From NCBI GenBank assembly GCA_001777915.1, contig MFFN01000008.1, positions 1 to 64,000 on the forward strand: a stretch of DNA of 64,000 nt, in the 5' to 3' direction. Positions 37,949 through 47,395 of this stretch are shown piece after piece (position 1 is the first letter of the stretch; each line of letters begins with the position of its first letter). The notes below the pieces were generated by a model that searched no databases, was not told the DNA's origin, and saw only the letters and a list, made by a program, of their open reading frames with translations. Made by a program: the position numbers and the translations under genes. The DNA comes from Candidatus Edwardsbacteria bacterium RifOxyA12_full_54_48 (GTDB taxonomy: Bacteria > Edwardsbacteria > AC1 > EtOH8).

Positions 37949-38641
37949 ATGAAGGATCTTTCCCAGCATCTGGAGCAGAAGCTGGAACTGTTGAGACACA
38001 AGGACCTCAGTTCCATCGACCGGCTGGACCTGATAGACGAGCTGGCCCAGGCCTGCCGGGAGCTGCAGCATTTGAACCGTTCTCTGGCCGAAGCCAACCA
38101 GCAGAAATCCAAACTGCTGGAGGACCTGGGAGCCAAGACCGCCGAACTGGAGCAGCAGACCAAGGAGGACGGTCTGACAGGTCTCTACAACCGCCGTTAT
38201 CTGGACCTGCGGCTGGAGAACGAGTTCGACCGGGCCAAAAGATACCGCCGCAACCTGACGGTGATAATGGCCGACATCGACCGTTTCAAGAACATCAACG
38301 ATACCTATTCGCATCAGGTGGGCGACCGGGTGCTGAAAAAAGTGGCCCAGATATTCACCGATAACTGCCGGGGGGTGGACATCGTCGCCCGTTACGGCGG
38401 GGAGGAATTCGTGCTGGTGCTGCCGGAGACCCCCTCCAGCGGAGGGATCCTGGTCTGCGAGAGGATAAGGAAGAGCATCGAGGAATATCGCTGGGCGGAG
38501 ATCCAGGAAGGTTTAAGGGTCACCATAAGTTTGGGATTGTGTTATGATGTCGGGCTTCCCAGCCACCGGGAGATGCTGGCCGAGGCCGATGCCAAGATGT
38601 ACCAGGCCAAGAATCAAGGCCGCAATCAGGTGAAATTTTAA
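37949..38641 (+). CDS. diguanylate cyclase (GGDEF domain)
   Basis: 230 residues: an N-terminal coiled-coil helix pair (about 1-68) followed by a GGDEF domain (about 70-230) with DGLTGLYNRRYLD, MADIDRFKNINDTYSHQVGD and active site RYGGEEFVLVLPE (GGEEF about 150-154). It should make c-di-GMP from two GTP. No sensor or membrane part is present, so control is likely through dimerisation or a partner. It follows gyrA by 54 bases and precedes a lone PAS protein. Confidence 0.9.
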   Translation: MKDLSQHLEQKLELLRHKDLSSIDRLDLIDELAQACRELQHLNRSLAEANQQKSKLLEDLGAKTAELEQQTKEDGLTGLYNRRYLDLRLENEFDRAKRYRRNLTVIMADIDRFKNINDTYSHQVGDRVLKKVAQIFTDNCRGVDIVARYGGEEFVLVLPETPSSGGILVCERIRKSIEEYRWAEIQEGLRVTISLGLCYDVGLPSHREMLAEADAKMYQAKNQGRNQVKF

Positions 38642-38664
38642 CCCTAAGCAATGGAGCGACAAAT

Positions 38665-39003
38665 ATGGCCGGGGAGTGGGTGGACGGATTCGGCGGGGCG
38701 GTCACGGTCTGCGACCGGGAAGGGATCATCCTTTACATGAACGATAAGGCCGTTGTCACCTTTGCCAAATACGGCGGCCGGGAGCTGATCGGCCGGAACC
38801 TTTTGGACTGCCATCCCGAACCGGCCAGGAGCAAGCTTATGGCTCTGATGAATGAACAGCGGACCAATGTCTACACCATAGAGAAGAACGGCATCAAGAA
38901 GTTGATCCACCAAAGCCCCTGGTTCAGGGATGGCAAATACCGGGGATTCGTGGAATTGTCCCTGGAGATACCCTTCGATATGCCGCACTTCGAGAGAAAA
39001 TGA
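38665..39003 (+). CDS. single-domain PAS protein
   Basis: 112 residues, one PAS fold: FGGAVTVCDREGIILYMNDK, then GRELIGRNLLDCHPEPARSK and a C-terminal RGFVELSLEIPF strand. Stand-alone PAS proteins bind small ligands or haem, or act as partners of other sensors. The diguanylate cyclase ending 23 bases upstream lacks a sensor, so this could be its sensory partner (inference). GGAG precedes the start. Confidence 0.75.
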   Translation: MAGEWVDGFGGAVTVCDREGIILYMNDKAVVTFAKYGGRELIGRNLLDCHPEPARSKLMALMNEQRTNVYTIEKNGIKKLIHQSPWFRDGKYRGFVELSLEIPFDMPHFERK

Positions 39004-39531: not shown

Positions 39532-39560
39532 AGCCGTCCTGTTGTTGAGACATGACGGCT
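39532..39560 (+). terminator. probable terminator
   Basis: AGCCGTC at 39532-39538 pairs with GACGGCT at 39554-39560 (15-base loop), followed by TTATCATTTT. Confidence 0.5.
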
Positions 39561-39620
39561 TTATCATTTTCCCGGCCACCTTTATTGACTTTATCACCGA
39601 ATAATAAGTATAATCCTTTC

Positions 39621-41678
39621 ATGAAATTGATCCTGATAATCCTGATAACGGCCCTGTCCTTCTGGTCGCTGGCAAGCGAAAAGGAAAGGATCGGCCGTAA
39701 ACTGCAGCTGGGGTTTGCCGGAATACGGCTTTTGGCCATCATCCTGTTCGCTTTGGCCCTGTGGGGAATTCCCCTCAGCCTGAATATTTTTGCCAGGCAG
39801 GAAAACAACATGGTCCTGGTAGTGGATGCCAGCCGCAGCATGGCCCAGCGTGACGGCCGTCCGACCGGACGTTTTGACAGGGCGATGGACCTGCTGGGCA
39901 AAATATCCTTCCGGCAGGATATAAAAAAATATATTTATGACCAGAACGGCCTGCGGGAGGCCTTGCCCGGCCCGCCGGTTGAGTATTCCGACAATACCGA
40001 TCTGATAAAGATGATCAAAGCGGCGGTCTCCTTAAAGCCGAAAGCGGTGGTGCTGTTGTCGGACGGCAATCATAACGCGCCGGGAGATCCGGCATCCGGG
40101 ACAGCCGGCGGGGATATTCCGATATACGCCATCGGCCTGGGCCCGGAGGCTGATGATCAGCGTCCTTCAATATCCCGGATAAATTCACCGGAGGACATCT
40201 CTCCCGGGCAGAAGGCGGCAATTGTGCTGCAGCTGGACAACGTCAAGGACAGGGATAAGATAGTCCTGAGCGACGGCCGGGGAAGAACCCTGCAACAGGC
40301 GGAGTATTCTGCCGACAAGAAAACGATCACCCTGGAGGCGGCCCCTTCTGCTTTGGGGCTCAACCGCTATACGGTCAGCATGCTGTCCGGGGGCGATACC
40401 ATCGACCGAAAAAATGTGGCAATAAACGTAAAAAAAGACCGGATCAATGTTCTCTACCTGTCAGGCGATCCGGGATGGGACCTGAGGTTCATGCAGCAGA
40501 CTGCGGCCAATGCCAAAAATATCGAATTGAACCCCTATCTGTGGAAGGATGACAGCTGGTCGGGCATCGGCAGCCAGGAGGGAGACCGGCAGGATCCATC
40601 TGATAAAATAAAAACCGCCGATGTGATCATTCTGCAGGGCATCCGGGAAAGCATGCTGGAAAGGGGTCTGGAGGGCGATATCGCCGCCCGGGTGCGGGAC
40701 GGAGGAGGCGGACTTTTGATACTGGGCCTGGACTGGCTCTGGGCGTTCCGCAGCCGCCAGCTGTATGCCATTGCACCCCTGATGCCTTCGTCCAATAGCG
40801 GGCTCAGTGAGGGAACGATTTCGCTGACGAAATATTTCTTGGCTTCCGGCCTGTTCGATCAGTCCCTGACCGAACAGATCGCTAAACGGATGGTAAAATA
40901 TCCTCCCTTGAACATCAGGGGGAAGGTCAAACAGTTGGCTGCCGATGCGGTGCTATTGGGAACTGTTGAAAACAACAAAGAGCACATCCCCTTTTGGGGC
41001 CGTGGCTACTTCGGCCGGGGCCGCGTAATGCAGATAACGGCATCATCACTGGGGCCGTGGAAAATGGCCGCCCAGGGGATGCTGGGAGACAGCCTGGTCT
41101 ATCCCGCATTGATCACCGGGAGCTTTCGCTGGCTGGCCGGCATGGAGGATCAAAACATAACCCTATCCACCGACCGAAGCTTTTACTATCCCGACGAAAA
41201 GATCATTTTCCAGGGAAGCCTGCCGGCGGAAAACAGCCGGGCCCAGGGCCTGGAGTGGTCGGTTGAGATCAAGGGCAGAAACGGCCTCCGGCAAAAACGG
41301 AGAATGTCCCATTGGGCCCCGGGGCGCTATATATTCGATGCCGGGGCCCTGCCGCCGGGAGAGTATGGTTATGCATCTGCCCTTTCGGCGGATGGTAAAA
41401 AACTGGCCGACCTCTCCGGTCGATTCTGGGTGGAGCCCTTCCCGGGCCAGGAAAAGGAGCGCTTCCAGAACCGGAAATTGTTAAGGGAGATATCCCGGAT
41501 CACCCAGGGCAGATATTGGGATATCGATTCGGTGGCCGGCAATAATGACTGGCTGGATCAGGTCAAACCGCAACCGGCGGCGGCAGAAAGACCTTTGGCC
41601 CCCTGGCTGTTACCGCTGATCATGGTCCTGCTGTTGGCCGGGGAATGGTACTGGCGGCGGCGCTCCGGATTAAGCTGA
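39621..41678 (+). CDS. membrane VWA-domain protein with glutamine-amidotransferase-like region
   Basis: About 685 residues. Two N-terminal membrane segments (about 1-17 and 31-53) are followed by a von Willebrand A domain with MIDAS motif DASRS (in LVVDASRSMAQ, about 72-76) and LLSDGNHNAPGD. A region from about 275 (INVLYLSGDPGWDLRF, VIILQGIRESML, GGGLLILGLDWLW) resembles class-I glutamine-amidotransferase-like folds without a catalytic Cys. A C-terminal membrane segment (WLLPLIMVLLLAGEWYW) ends the protein. Similar proteins sit beside BatA/MoxR-type systems, but none are seen here. ATG 39621 opens the first membrane segment. Confidence 0.75.
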   Translation: MKLILIILITALSFWSLASEKERIGRKLQLGFAGIRLLAIILFALALWGIPLSLNIFARQENNMVLVVDASRSMAQRDGRPTGRFDRAMDLLGKISFRQDIKKYIYDQNGLREALPGPPVEYSDNTDLIKMIKAAVSLKPKAVVLLSDGNHNAPGDPASGTAGGDIPIYAIGLGPEADDQRPSISRINSPEDISPGQKAAIVLQLDNVKDRDKIVLSDGRGRTLQQAEYSADKKTITLEAAPSALGLNRYTVSMLSGGDTIDRKNVAINVKKDRINVLYLSGDPGWDLRFMQQTAANAKNIELNPYLWKDDSWSGIGSQEGDRQDPSDKIKTADVIILQGIRESMLERGLEGDIAARVRDGGGGLLILGLDWLWAFRSRQLYAIAPLMPSSNSGLSEGTISLTKYFLASGLFDQSLTEQIAKRMVKYPPLNIRGKVKQLAADAVLLGTVENNKEHIPFWGRGYFGRGRVMQITASSLGPWKMAAQGMLGDSLVYPALITGSFRWLAGMEDQNITLSTDRSFYYPDEKIIFQGSLPAENSRAQGLEWSVEIKGRNGLRQKRRMSHWAPGRYIFDAGALPPGEYGYASALSADGKKLADLSGRFWVEPFPGQEKERFQNRKLLREISRITQGRYWDIDSVAGNNDWLDQVKPQPAAAERPLAPWLLPLIMVLLLAGEWYWRRRSGLS

Positions 41679-42456: not shown

Positions 42457-43185
42457 ATGGAACACCGAATGGAGAGATTGAACTGGAAGCAGTTCCAAAA
42501 GACGGTCCCCGGAAAGACCGATATGGTCCTGCTGCCGGTGGGGACCATCGAGGCCCACGGGCCGGGGGCCCTGGGCACCGATGCCATAATTCCCGGCTAC
42601 CTGGCCGACCGGCTTTCCCGGCCGCTCAACGCCCTGGTGGCCCCGGCCATCAATTACGGCGTCACCAATTCCCTGATCGGCTTTCCGGGGTCGCTGACCG
42701 TCAGCCCCCCGACCCTTAAGGCCTATGTCCGGGAGGCGGCCTTCAGCCTGGCCGACGCCGGCTTCAAGAAGATCATCGTGCTCAACGGCCATGGCGGAAA
42801 CATCGACAGCCTGGACGATCTGGGGGCCGGGCTGTGGAGGGATAAAAAGGCCGGCTGCCTGGTGATCCACTGGTGGATGGCGGCCGAAGAGGCATCGGCC
42901 AAATATTTCGACGGCTCGGGCCATGCCGGGGCCGACGAGCTGGCGGCCCTGATGGCCATCGACCCGGCGCTGGTCTCAAAGTCCGACTACCGCCGGGAGG
43001 AGGCCGGGCACCGTTTTGAGGGCATCAGCATGCACCCCTTCTACCGGAGCATGATATTGAACCAGCCGGGCAAGGGCTATCCGGTGTTCAATTCCGCCCG
43101 GGCCAAGAAATATATGGAGGCGGTGGTGCTGAAATTAACCTCGGACATCAAACAGATATTGGCCGGCTGGGAGAAGATCATCTGA
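42457..43185 (+). CDS. creatininase-family amidohydrolase
   Basis: 242 residues of the creatininase / MftE-like family, metal-dependent amidohydrolases. PVGTIEAHGPGALGTDAI (about 28-45) has the metal-binding Glu, His and Asp, and VLNGHGGNIDSL (about 108-119) the second site; HAGADELAAL supplies a further acidic site. The true substrate of most family members is not creatinine. ATG 42457 or 42469 are both possible. The stop overlaps the next ATG (TGATG), so it is coupled to the cyclase gene. Confidence 0.85.
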   Translation: MEHRMERLNWKQFQKTVPGKTDMVLLPVGTIEAHGPGALGTDAIIPGYLADRLSRPLNALVAPAINYGVTNSLIGFPGSLTVSPPTLKAYVREAAFSLADAGFKKIIVLNGHGGNIDSLDDLGAGLWRDKKAGCLVIHWWMAAEEASAKYFDGSGHAGADELAALMAIDPALVSKSDYRREEAGHRFEGISMHPFYRSMILNQPGKGYPVFNSARAKKYMEAVVLKLTSDIKQILAGWEKII

Positions 43186-45977
43186 TGGATAATGCCAGTT
43201 TCAAGATATCGGAATTCGAGAAGATCATCAAGACCAGCAGCCGCTATATCTCCCGGACCGATGAAACGCTGGGACAGCCGGAACAGGCCCGGGAGAAGAT
43301 AAGCCTGGTGTCCCGGTTCCTTAAAGAGAGAAGGCTGGGCGGCGAGATCCTCTCGGTGTTCGGGGAGGCCAAGAACCCGGGGCTGGTCTATGTGGAGCTG
43401 CCCCAGGGCACCCGGGAGTTCCACGGGCAGGCGGCCCAGATGCTGTTGGAATGCTGCCTGTACGACGCCGATGGTCAGCCCAACGAAAGGGCTTGGGACC
43501 GGTGGCGCGATTTCGGGAGGAACATCTATTACGGCACGGTGGAGGAGATCTACCTCAACTTCACTTCGGCCCAGCCGGAGCTGGCCCTGATATTCGAACT
43601 GGCCTACCGCCAGCTGATGTCAGAGTCTTCGACACCATGGTGGGATCAGCAGTCGGAGGCGGTCAGGGGCAAGGAGCCGCAGGTGATGCGGAGGTTCAAC
43701 CTGGAGCTGACCGCCCTGCTGCGACCCATCAGGGACAAGGTGCTGCAGAAGCATTCCATCGACACCGAACTTTTTGAGAAACTGCTGGATCAGGGCTGGA
43801 ACGTGACCTTCGACCTGGAGAATCCCCAGGCCGGAAATTTTGCCCCGCTGCTCAGGGAACTGAATCTTTCCCAATGGATGATCTCGGAGCTATTCCACCT
43901 GCTGTACACCGAGCAATTGAAGGCCAATGAAGAGGCGCTGTGGGAGAAGCTGGGCAGCAGCAACTTTGCCAAACCCGAAGAGATAACCAATATGATCTCC
44001 GGCAGCCTGGCCCAGATCACCGAGCTGGCCGCCAAGGAGATCCAGAAGGTCCTGATCAAGAGAGCCTCCGAGCTGGAGGTCAAGCTCAACCAGGAGCTGG
44101 CCGACCTTCAGAAATACACCAGCCGGGTCAAAAAGCAGACCCAGGAACTGGTGATGCTGAACAACAGCGACATGTCCAAGGTGGTGGACGCCAAGCTCTA
44201 TTCCGAAAACCTGCTGAACCTGGCGGCCAAGGTCACCGATTCCCTGATGCAATTCCAGAGAAACCTTACCGGCCAGCTGTGGTATCTGCAGGATCTGGAA
44301 CGCAAGGAGAAAGCCCTCCAGACCTCCATCGAAAGGTGCCAAGCGCTGCAGAGGATGCCTCTGAAGGACCTGACGGCAATGCTCACCTCCCAATCCGGCG
44401 AGATCGGCACCGATATTCTGAAGCATCTGGAATTTTTCAACAACCTTGACCAGTCGATAAAACGTGATTGGGAGGGGCTTACCAATAGCCTGGCCAAGAC
44501 CCTGGTGGAGATGATCCGGCAGGGGCTGGAGCAGGCCAACATCAAGGTGAAAACCCTGGATCGGGAGGCGGCCAGGCGCAACCCCAACGACCCCCATGCC
44601 GCCGCCGTCCTGCTGGAGATGGAGCAGGCCCAGGCCGACGGCCGGGCCATCTCCGGGCTGATAGAGGAACAGGGAGGGAACCGGGCCTTCCACGTGGAGC
44701 TGTTGATCGAGAACTACCGGAAGTTCCTCAAGGAGGTGGCCGAGCCGATCATGAATTTCCGCCGGCTGGCCTCGCTGGTCCGGCTGTGGCCGCCCCTGAT
44801 GGTGAAGGATCCTCCGGTTTTGAGACAGCAGGAATTATGCGACGAAGTTTTTTATCTTTCGGAAAGGCTCAAGAGATACAATCGTTGCTATTGTTTCGTG
44901 GCCCAGGGGGCGGTCCTGCCCCGGTCCTCGGCCGCCCTGAAGAACGACGGCGAGGTGCGGGATAGGGTGTACAAGCATTTCTCCCGGGTGGTGGCGGTGA
45001 TGGTCTACGACATCCGGGGATCAAGCTTCATGAGCTCCAAGCTGATGAACGCCGACAAGGAAAGGGAGATCAAGAACAAACTGGGCTATATGATCACCCA
45101 GGTGATCAGACAGCATGGCGGATTCATTGTCAAGGACACCGGGGATGGCGGACTGGCCTGGTTCGGGGACAATGCCCACGAAACCTACGAAAAATGCTAC
45201 AAGGAGGTCTTCACCGGCAAGGGGCTCAAACTGAGGCATTCCATCAGCTCGGGGACGGAATTGAACATCCTGCCGGCCACCGAATCCACCAAACAGGCGG
45301 TGGACTGCGCCACCGAGATGCTTAATGTGGCCGAGAAGTTCATCCAGGAGAATTTCAGCAATTACCGGGACTGGTTCCGGGACGCCAAGGAAAGGGAGAT
45401 ACTCTACGAAGGGATAAACTATGCGGTCCTGCCGCCGGCTTTCAAATCGCTGTTCCGGATAGGGGTGGGGATATCCTCCGGCTCCTCCGGCAAAGAGATC
45501 AACCTGTCGCTCAATTCGTTCGGCGATACCGACCTGTGCGGGGCGGCGGTCAACAATGCCAGCCTGTATGCCACCGGCAAGGACCCCAGCCGTTCGGTGA
45601 TAATGCTGGACCACGTCTCTTTCGCCAATATGATGCTCAACACCGAGAGGTTCACCTCCCTTCCTCAGGAGAAATTGTGGTGCACCAGGACCACCGGGAC
45701 CGATGGCTGGGAAAGCAAGCTCCGGGAGAGCCTCAAGATATGCGATTCCGTTGCCGATGAGGGCAGCTACTATATCCCGGGCAGGAATTATTCGGTCAGG
45801 AGGGCCGGATATCAGATCTTGGGGCTGTCGAACACCTCCAAGGAGGCCAGCCTGCGGATGGAGGCCGGGGACAAGGAGGCAGCCATGCAGGACGACGGCA
45901 GGTTCATGGATCCCCAGACCAAGACCGAGATAAAATTCGTATACGAAGTTCAACCCCAGGAGAAGGGGGGTAAGTAA
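43185..45977 (+). CDS. unusual class III nucleotidyl cyclase domain protein
   Basis: 930 residues with no signal or membrane segment. The first 590 residues are not recognised; they are helical, with long coiled coils at about 285-330 and 350-400. The C-terminal part is a class III cyclase fold: metal Asp609 in VYDIRGSS, Lys650 and metal Asp654 in VKDTGDGGLAWF (45 residues apart, the classic spacing), Asp783 and Asn790 in DTDLCGAAVNNASLY. These match the ATP-selecting Lys/Asp pair and transition-state Asn of adenylate cyclases. The transition-state Arg, expected at 794, is Leu, and about 65 extra residues lie between the two halves. It may be weakly active, use another Arg, or be a nucleotide sensor. 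It is coupled to creatininase upstream and a GGDEF gene two bases downstream. Confidence 0.75.
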   Translation: MDNASFKISEFEKIIKTSSRYISRTDETLGQPEQAREKISLVSRFLKERRLGGEILSVFGEAKNPGLVYVELPQGTREFHGQAAQMLLECCLYDADGQPNERAWDRWRDFGRNIYYGTVEEIYLNFTSAQPELALIFELAYRQLMSESSTPWWDQQSEAVRGKEPQVMRRFNLELTALLRPIRDKVLQKHSIDTELFEKLLDQGWNVTFDLENPQAGNFAPLLRELNLSQWMISELFHLLYTEQLKANEEALWEKLGSSNFAKPEEITNMISGSLAQITELAAKEIQKVLIKRASELEVKLNQELADLQKYTSRVKKQTQELVMLNNSDMSKVVDAKLYSENLLNLAAKVTDSLMQFQRNLTGQLWYLQDLERKEKALQTSIERCQALQRMPLKDLTAMLTSQSGEIGTDILKHLEFFNNLDQSIKRDWEGLTNSLAKTLVEMIRQGLEQANIKVKTLDREAARRNPNDPHAAAVLLEMEQAQADGRAISGLIEEQGGNRAFHVELLIENYRKFLKEVAEPIMNFRRLASLVRLWPPLMVKDPPVLRQQELCDEVFYLSERLKRYNRCYCFVAQGAVLPRSSAALKNDGEVRDRVYKHFSRVVAVMVYDIRGSSFMSSKLMNADKEREIKNKLGYMITQVIRQHGGFIVKDTGDGGLAWFGDNAHETYEKCYKEVFTGKGLKLRHSISSGTELNILPATESTKQAVDCATEMLNVAEKFIQENFSNYRDWFRDAKEREILYEGINYAVLPPAFKSLFRIGVGISSGSSGKEINLSLNSFGDTDLCGAAVNNASLYATGKDPSRSVIMLDHVSFANMMLNTERFTSLPQEKLWCTRTTGTDGWESKLRESLKICDSVADEGSYYIPGRNYSVRRAGYQILGLSNTSKEASLRMEAGDKEAAMQDDGRFMDPQTKTEIKFVYEVQPQEKGGK

Positions 45978-45979
45978 TC

Positions 45980-47395
45980 ATGGCGGAGATACTGATCGTT
46001 GACCAGGACCGGCTTTTTGCCCTGACCCTGGTCCATGTCCTGAGCGGTCATCACCACCAATCGGTGCTGGCCTCCGACGAAAAGGAGGTGGTGAGCATCA
46101 TCCGGGACCGCAACATCGACCTGATCCTGGTGGATGCCGAGCTGGCCAGCCGGAAGAGCCTCCATCTGCTGAAGCATTTGAGGCAGGCCAATCCCGATAT
46201 TCCGGTGGTGCTTTCGATATCTAAGAAGGTCGACAAGGACGATCGGGAGCAGCTTAGGAGCGGACTGTACGACTACATCAACAAGCCGTTCGGGCACGAG
46301 GAACTGCTGCTGGCGGTGGAACGGGGCCTGGAAAGGCGGCGCCTCCAGAATGAGAATCGCCAGCTGCTGGGGGATCTCAAGCAGCGGATCCGGGAATTGT
46401 CCACCTTCAACACCATCGCCAAGACCCTCAACTCCACCCTCAATCTCAAAGAGGTGCTGGACATAGTGATGGGCAAGGTCAAAGAGCTGATCAAGGCCGA
46501 GGCCTGGTCCATTTTGATGCTGGACGAAAAGACCAACGAACTGGTGTTCGAGGTGGCCACCGGGGAGAAGGGCCAGCAGGTGAAGGAGATGAGGCTGGGC
46601 ATGGGGCAGGGGGTGGCCGGCTGGGTGGCCCAGAACCAGCGGCCGGTGATCGTGCCGGATACCGCCCAGGATCAGCGTTTCTTCAAGGGCCTGGACCAGA
46701 AGACCGGATTCCGCACCCGATCCATCATCGCCACTCCCCTGATGTCGCGGGGCCGGCTGATCGGAGTGGTGGAGATAATAAACAAGCTGGGCGACGCCTC
46801 TTTTGAACAGAAGGACCTGGACCTGCTGCAGACCCTGACCGACCATGCCGCCATAGCCATAGAGAACGCCCGGCTGTACGAAAAGGCCCGGCGGCTGGCC
46901 ATCACCGACGACCTGACCGGGCTGTATAATTCCCGGCACTGCGACATGTTCCTGAAGAAGGCCCTGGATGAGGCGGTCAAAAAGGGCCAGCCGCTGTCCC
47001 TGATATTCATAGACCTGGACCACATGAAAGAGGTGGACGATACCTACGGCCACCTGATGGGCGGGCACGCCCTGAAGGAGGTGGCCGACCGGATAGCCGG
47101 GGAGGTCAGCCCGCCGGACATGGCCTCGCGCTACGGCGGCGACGAATACGTGATCGTCCTGCCCGGCAAGGATTCCCGGCAGGCCATCGAACTGGCCGAG
47201 ACCATCAGGAGGAAGATCGAGGCCCAGCCGTTTCTGACCGGCCACAAACTGTCGTGCCGGATAACGGCCAGCATAGGCATCGCCAATTACCCGGAGCAGG
47301 CCGGAAGCACCGACGAGCTGTTCTCCAAGGCCGACCAGGCCATGTACCAGGTGAAGGAATCGGGAAAGAACCGGATCAAACTGTCCGATAAATGA
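45980..47395 (+). CDS. REC-GAF-GGDEF diguanylate cyclase
   Basis: 471 residues. Receiver (1-120) with Asp52 in LILVDAELA and Lys102 in INKPFG; a helical linker; GAF domain (about 150-300, LKEVLDIVMGKVKELIKAEA to AAIAIENARLYEKA); GGDEF domain (about 310-471) with DDLTGLYNSRHCDMF and active site RYGGDEYVIVLPG (GGDEY about 385-389). Phosphorylation and a GAF ligand should together control c-di-GMP synthesis. No RxxD inhibitory site is seen just ahead of the active site. It starts two bases after the cyclase stop. Confidence 0.92.
   Translation: MAEILIVDQDRLFALTLVHVLSGHHHQSVLASDEKEVVSIIRDRNIDLILVDAELASRKSLHLLKHLRQANPDIPVVLSISKKVDKDDREQLRSGLYDYINKPFGHEELLLAVERGLERRRLQNENRQLLGDLKQRIRELSTFNTIAKTLNSTLNLKEVLDIVMGKVKELIKAEAWSILMLDEKTNELVFEVATGEKGQQVKEMRLGMGQGVAGWVAQNQRPVIVPDTAQDQRFFKGLDQKTGFRTRSIIATPLMSRGRLIGVVEIINKLGDASFEQKDLDLLQTLTDHAAIAIENARLYEKARRLAITDDLTGLYNSRHCDMFLKKALDEAVKKGQPLSLIFIDLDHMKEVDDTYGHLMGGHALKEVADRIAGEVSPPDMASRYGGDEYVIVLPGKDSRQAIELAETIRRKIEAQPFLTGHKLSCRITASIGIANYPEQAGSTDELFSKADQAMYQVKESGKNRIKLSDK

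Follow-up and report, generated by a model that had tools for sequence, protein, structure and literature searches.

In mammalian membrane adenylyl cyclases, the C1 domain keeps the metal-binding Asp residues and the Lys, carries a non-basic residue in place of the Arg, and works with the C2 domain of the same chain. In class III cyclases, one chain provides the metal-binding Asp residues and helix alpha-4 of the partner chain provides the Asn and the Arg, the Arg being a recognised stabiliser of the transition state (PMC2576301). Class III-like families lacking this Arg have already been predicted in the literature: in a set of 53 DUF2652 proteins, its position is occupied by Gln, His, Tyr or Cys in several (PMC4886424).

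We analysed a window of 64,000 nucleotides from Candidatus Edwardsbacteria bacterium RifOxyA12_full_54_48 (contig MFFN01000008.1), in which an ORF at 43185-45977 on the + strand, with an ATG start, encodes a 930-aa protein. The protein has a predicted helical N-terminus, a probable coiled coil, a class III cyclase-like domain and a C-terminal extension. Its family resembles class III nucleotidyl cyclases (PF00211; CyaC, Cya2, Rv1900c) in the fold, the order of elements, both metal Asp residues, the Lys four residues before the second Asp and the glycine-rich turn after the first. Unlike those enzymes, it lacks the transition-state Arg and a PF00211 match, carries two inserts between its halves, has a longer C-terminus and does not keep the Asn in every member. 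Like the DUF2652 cyclase-like proteins, several of which also lack the Arg, it is a divergent class III relative with both metal Asp residues; unlike it, DUF2652 proteins are mostly single-domain, about 250 aa long, with Glu/Lys or Lys/Glu selecting pairs (PMC4886424), and DUF2652 (PF10851) was absent from the Pfam matches of the 930-aa protein. Comparison of close relatives gave a dN/dS of 0.09-0.12 for the whole gene and 0.045-0.09 for the cyclase region, the lowest within the protein, and the gene is therefore maintained. The ORF is real and under strong purifying selection.

The relationship of the C-terminus to class III cyclases was assessed with profile, profile-profile and structural comparisons, which place a class III cyclase homology domain, interrupted by two inserts, at about residues 601-830 (44985-45674, + strand). 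Scored with a control profile built on 36 ordinary class III cyclases of related and sampled genomes, the family reached 17-45 bits, and profile-profile alignment of the family with class III cyclases (hhalign) covered both halves at 97% probability (E 1.5e-11). The AlphaFold models, made with a five-sequence input, were poor (pLDDT 46 for the cyclase domain and 44 at full length), too poor to superpose the pocket or to locate another Arg within it. With the low-confidence domain model as query, class III cyclases accounted for 50 of the 50 matches listed by Foldseek against the PDB, the best at E 4.2e-6; the TM-scores, normalised by query, were low (0.2-0.3), and the result therefore backs the fold and not atomic detail. 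We regard homology of the C-terminus to class III cyclases as safe on these sequence and model-based comparisons. The profile-profile and Foldseek results bear out the reading of the C-terminus as cyclase-like in the first-pass annotation, and the fold found, albeit from a poor model, is cyclase-like.

No Pfam or NCBIfam family matched the 930-aa protein; PF00211 gave no match at E up to 10, and a PF00211 search of the organism's own genome missed the locus. PHROGs returned one weak match, within the cyclase region. Matches to polyhedrin, beta-propeller and exonuclease families were attributed to chance, being short, sub-threshold, mutually unrelated, or repeats matching a tail segment. The PADLOC models of Pycsar pyrimidine cyclases matched weakly (best E 7.9e-5) over about 63 residues of the generic first half only. 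These matches, together with the wide variation of base selection within class III (PMC11224242), could point to different chemistry on the same fold, such as NTP pyrophosphohydrolysis or synthesis of a cyclic pyrimidine nucleotide, a linear product or a dinucleotide. We consider such chemistry very improbable, given the confinement of the match to the generic half and the lack of a Pycsar effector among the nearby genes examined, which encode creatininase, rhomboid and RR-GGDEF proteins. The protein shares with PycC the metal Asp residues and this weak first-half similarity; unlike PycC, it has an unmatched second half, and its size, N-terminus and gene context differ.

Residue invariance was counted over 11 homologues, namely ten Edwardsbacteria family members and a distant homologue of 943 aa and 27% identity from another phylum (genome G111, L031:6702-9533), the sole genome of its phylum in the sample. 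The most conserved 15-residue window of the whole protein spans residues 649-663 (VKDTGDGGLAWFGDN; 45129-45173, + strand), which aligns to the K-x-x-G-D motif of cyclases and contains K650 and D654. The second most conserved spans residues 606-620 (MVYDIRGSSFMSSKL; 45000-45044, + strand), where D609 aligns to the first metal Asp of cyclases and R611 and K619 are also invariant. Both windows held these ranks with the 27%-identical homologue included. D609, K650 and D654 were invariant in 11 of 11 and aligned unambiguously to the cyclase residues, so that the two metal-binding Asp residues of class III and the Lys of the base-selecting pair, whose other member is Asp or Thr, are all present; the earlier assignment of these three residues held in the control alignment. 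The top conservation of the metal motifs and the lowest dN/dS of the cyclase region are unlike a decaying domain.

The second half-site presented a different picture. All six residues named by the first-pass annotation (D609, K650, D654, D783, N790 and L794) lie where it had placed them, and its central claim, that the Arg is replaced by L794 (45564-45566, + strand), proved correct: the column holds Leu in 10 of the 11 homologues and Val in the distant one, versus Arg in 36 of 36 control cyclases. In the alignments extending that far, L794 fell on the Arg column and VN790 on the canonical VN. The transition-state Arg is thus absent from all 11 homologues. N790 (45552-45554, + strand) aligns to the ribose-orienting Asn and is Asn in 10 of 11 but Arg in the G111 homologue, and its proposed role as a transition-state residue is not secure. 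The beta-4 Arg (R758) is Gln in the same homologue.

The base-selecting position depends on the alignment. Residues 777-783 (N-S-F-G-D-T-D; 45513-45533, + strand) include N777, G780, D781 and D783, each invariant in 11 of 11. In one option, N777-x-x-G780-D781 supplies the selecting residue and the canonical GD, and D783 falls within a six-residue insertion; in the other, originally proposed, D783-L-x-G786 is matched to the canonical positions. Profiles without the distant homologue favoured D783, whereas most profiles with it favoured N777, since that placement lines the invariant G780-D781 up with the canonical GD. Given this ambiguity, and the changes at N790 and R758 in the distant homologue, the statement that all ATP-selecting residues are present was too strong: K650 is kept, but D783 has N777 as an alternative. 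What holds is that the metal site and the Lys survive while the canonical Arg is lost; the metal-bearing half is preserved and the other half has drifted.

These observations are weighed differently by two readings. The one we prefer, though we hold it tentatively and at somewhat under an even chance, is that the protein is a homodimeric cytosolic signalling enzyme that binds a metal-NTP and handles the transition state non-canonically, through a substitute residue. Homology to class III cyclases, the Foldseek match and the invariance of the metal motifs and of several basic residues argue for it, as does the proposal that activity is retained in class III-like families whose Arg is replaced by Gln, His, Tyr or Cys (PMC4886424). 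Against it, the missing Arg is a recognised transition-state stabiliser (PMC2576301), and the distant homologue has changed Asn to Arg, the beta-4 Arg to Gln and the Arg position to Val; the second half-site is therefore poorly kept, which equally fits a binding-only domain. The protein could then be a pseudo-cyclase, for which Mg-ATP or some other nucleotide is a ligand and not a substrate; occupancy of the site would alter the N-terminal region or act on a partner, the neighbouring RR-GAF-GGDEF protein being one candidate. Loss of the Arg in 11 of 11 and of the Asn in 1 of 11, alongside a preserved metal- and base-binding half, would suit such a ligand-binding role, but the extreme conservation of the metal-Asp motifs exceeds the usual need of nucleotide binding alone; we see this as a serious but rather doubtful possibility. 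If inactive, the protein would be a clean natural case of a cyclase turned nucleotide sensor and kept across a whole candidate phylum. If active, it would show that catalysis on the class III fold is possible even when the Arg regarded as its transition-state stabiliser is missing, and it would bring in a new regulatory architecture and perhaps a new product.

Candidates for a substitute residue were sought among the basic residues of the C-terminal region invariant in 11 of 11, which include R611, K619, K650, R684, R737, K754 and R873. The second Asp and beta-4 lie about 60 residues farther apart than in a control cyclase. The extra stretch noted earlier between the halves (about 65 residues) is real, and alignment gaps split it over two family-specific inserts. 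Insert 1 covers about residues 662-702 (45168-45290, + strand) and carries the invariant R684, and insert 2 covers about residues 724-752 (45354-45440, + strand) with the invariant R737-E738, directly followed by the invariant K754. Judged from the alignment, the Arg may be replaced by R684 or R737 in the inserts, by K754 just after the second insert, or by K619 or R611 close to the triphosphate turn. Under the enzyme reading, the helical N-terminal module and long coiled coil would dimerise the divergent cyclase domain, each domain would bind Mg-NTP, most likely ATP, through D609, D654 and K650, and catalysis would proceed without the canonical Arg, probably by way of K619, R611, R684, R737 or K754. 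There may also be a functional link to the adjacent GGDEF protein. The fuller proposal, an undescribed class III-fold enzyme family that makes a nucleotide second messenger, takes its transition-state residue from a lineage-specific insert instead of the canonical helix and is governed by a helical sensor without known relatives, we regard as unlikely.

The pattern of metal Asp residues and Lys kept and Arg lost is also that of mammalian C1, and the protein could be a half-site subunit that supplies the metals while a C2-like partner supplies Asn and Arg. Relatives do encode tandem proteins with a C2-like second half that lacks metal Asp residues and in which the Asn and Arg motif is intact. 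However, unlike mammalian C1, the 930-aa chain has no C2-like partner domain; the three other class III domains of its own genome all keep both metal Asp residues, and a protein with these inserts and this unique N-terminus is unlikely to pair with ordinary cyclases. Because no C2-like partner was found in its own genome at E up to 10, this arrangement is weakened, and we give it little credence.

The tandem cyclase proteins of the relatives (L072, L073, L080 and L081) have a degenerate first half and resemble the mammalian C1-C2 split; none was found in the RifOxyA12_full_54_48 genome. Descent of the 930-aa family from the first domain of such proteins was rejected, since its profile scores ordinary VKT-GD class III cyclases highest. 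A standalone class III domain of 209 aa in the same genome (L020:1369-1995; G000:C7 near 89131-89538) has Lys for the transition-state Arg (VNAASKL). Lys is also present in the corresponding domains of two other genera (L074 and L075), making a second Arg-less cyclase family in the phylum.

The N-terminal region matched nothing known. Residues 1-590 (43185-44954, + strand) are predicted to be all-helical from low-confidence secondary structure, and hydropathy revealed no membrane segment (maximum 1.02 over 19 residues). Within them, residues 264-389 (43974-44351, + strand) form two long helices in the same low-confidence prediction, a probable coiled coil. Searches of residues 1-590 against Pfam, NCBIfam and PDB sequences returned no match, in keeping with the initial remark that this helical stretch of about 590 residues was unfamiliar.

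A full-length copy, one per genome and 48-93% identical, was present in all ten family genomes examined. Apart from these and G111, the other ~380 sampled genomes held no relative of the same architecture; genomes were sampled twice, ~385 each time and largely the same set, and the second sampling returned, besides the known members, ordinary cyclases only. A scan of viral contigs found no relative, and the homologues in public records belong to Candidatus Edwardsbacteria and to a UBP2 MAG. This family is new, as are its two inserts and N-terminal module; so far it is limited to a single candidate phylum and one further genome.

Directly downstream on the same strand lies a response regulator-GAF-GGDEF gene (45980-47395, + strand), conserved in 10 of 10 Edwardsbacteria genomes. 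This pairing suggests a signalling role alongside the GGDEF protein, which favours the enzyme reading and would also suit a pseudo-cyclase acting on that partner, but the latter has to contend with the homologue of the other phylum, which has no GGDEF gene beside it. By ORF reading, the neighbours in G111 encode an endolytic transglycosylase and a UvrD-type helicase, and the homologue directly follows the putative transglycosylase gene with a 4-base overlap. Upstream of the 930-aa gene, a creatininase-family gene (42457-43185, + strand), whose stop overlaps the ATG, is kept in 6 of the 9 other family genomes; the creatininase and rhomboid genes on this side are kept in some Edwardsbacteria genomes only. 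Farther upstream, a 708-aa ORF (39552-41678) has no Pfam match at E 0.01; it contains a hydrophobic stretch at the N-terminus, and its VVDASRSM motif hints at a von Willebrand type A domain. A GGDEF protein followed by a small standalone PAS-domain protein (37949-39003) is encoded upstream of the same gene cluster.
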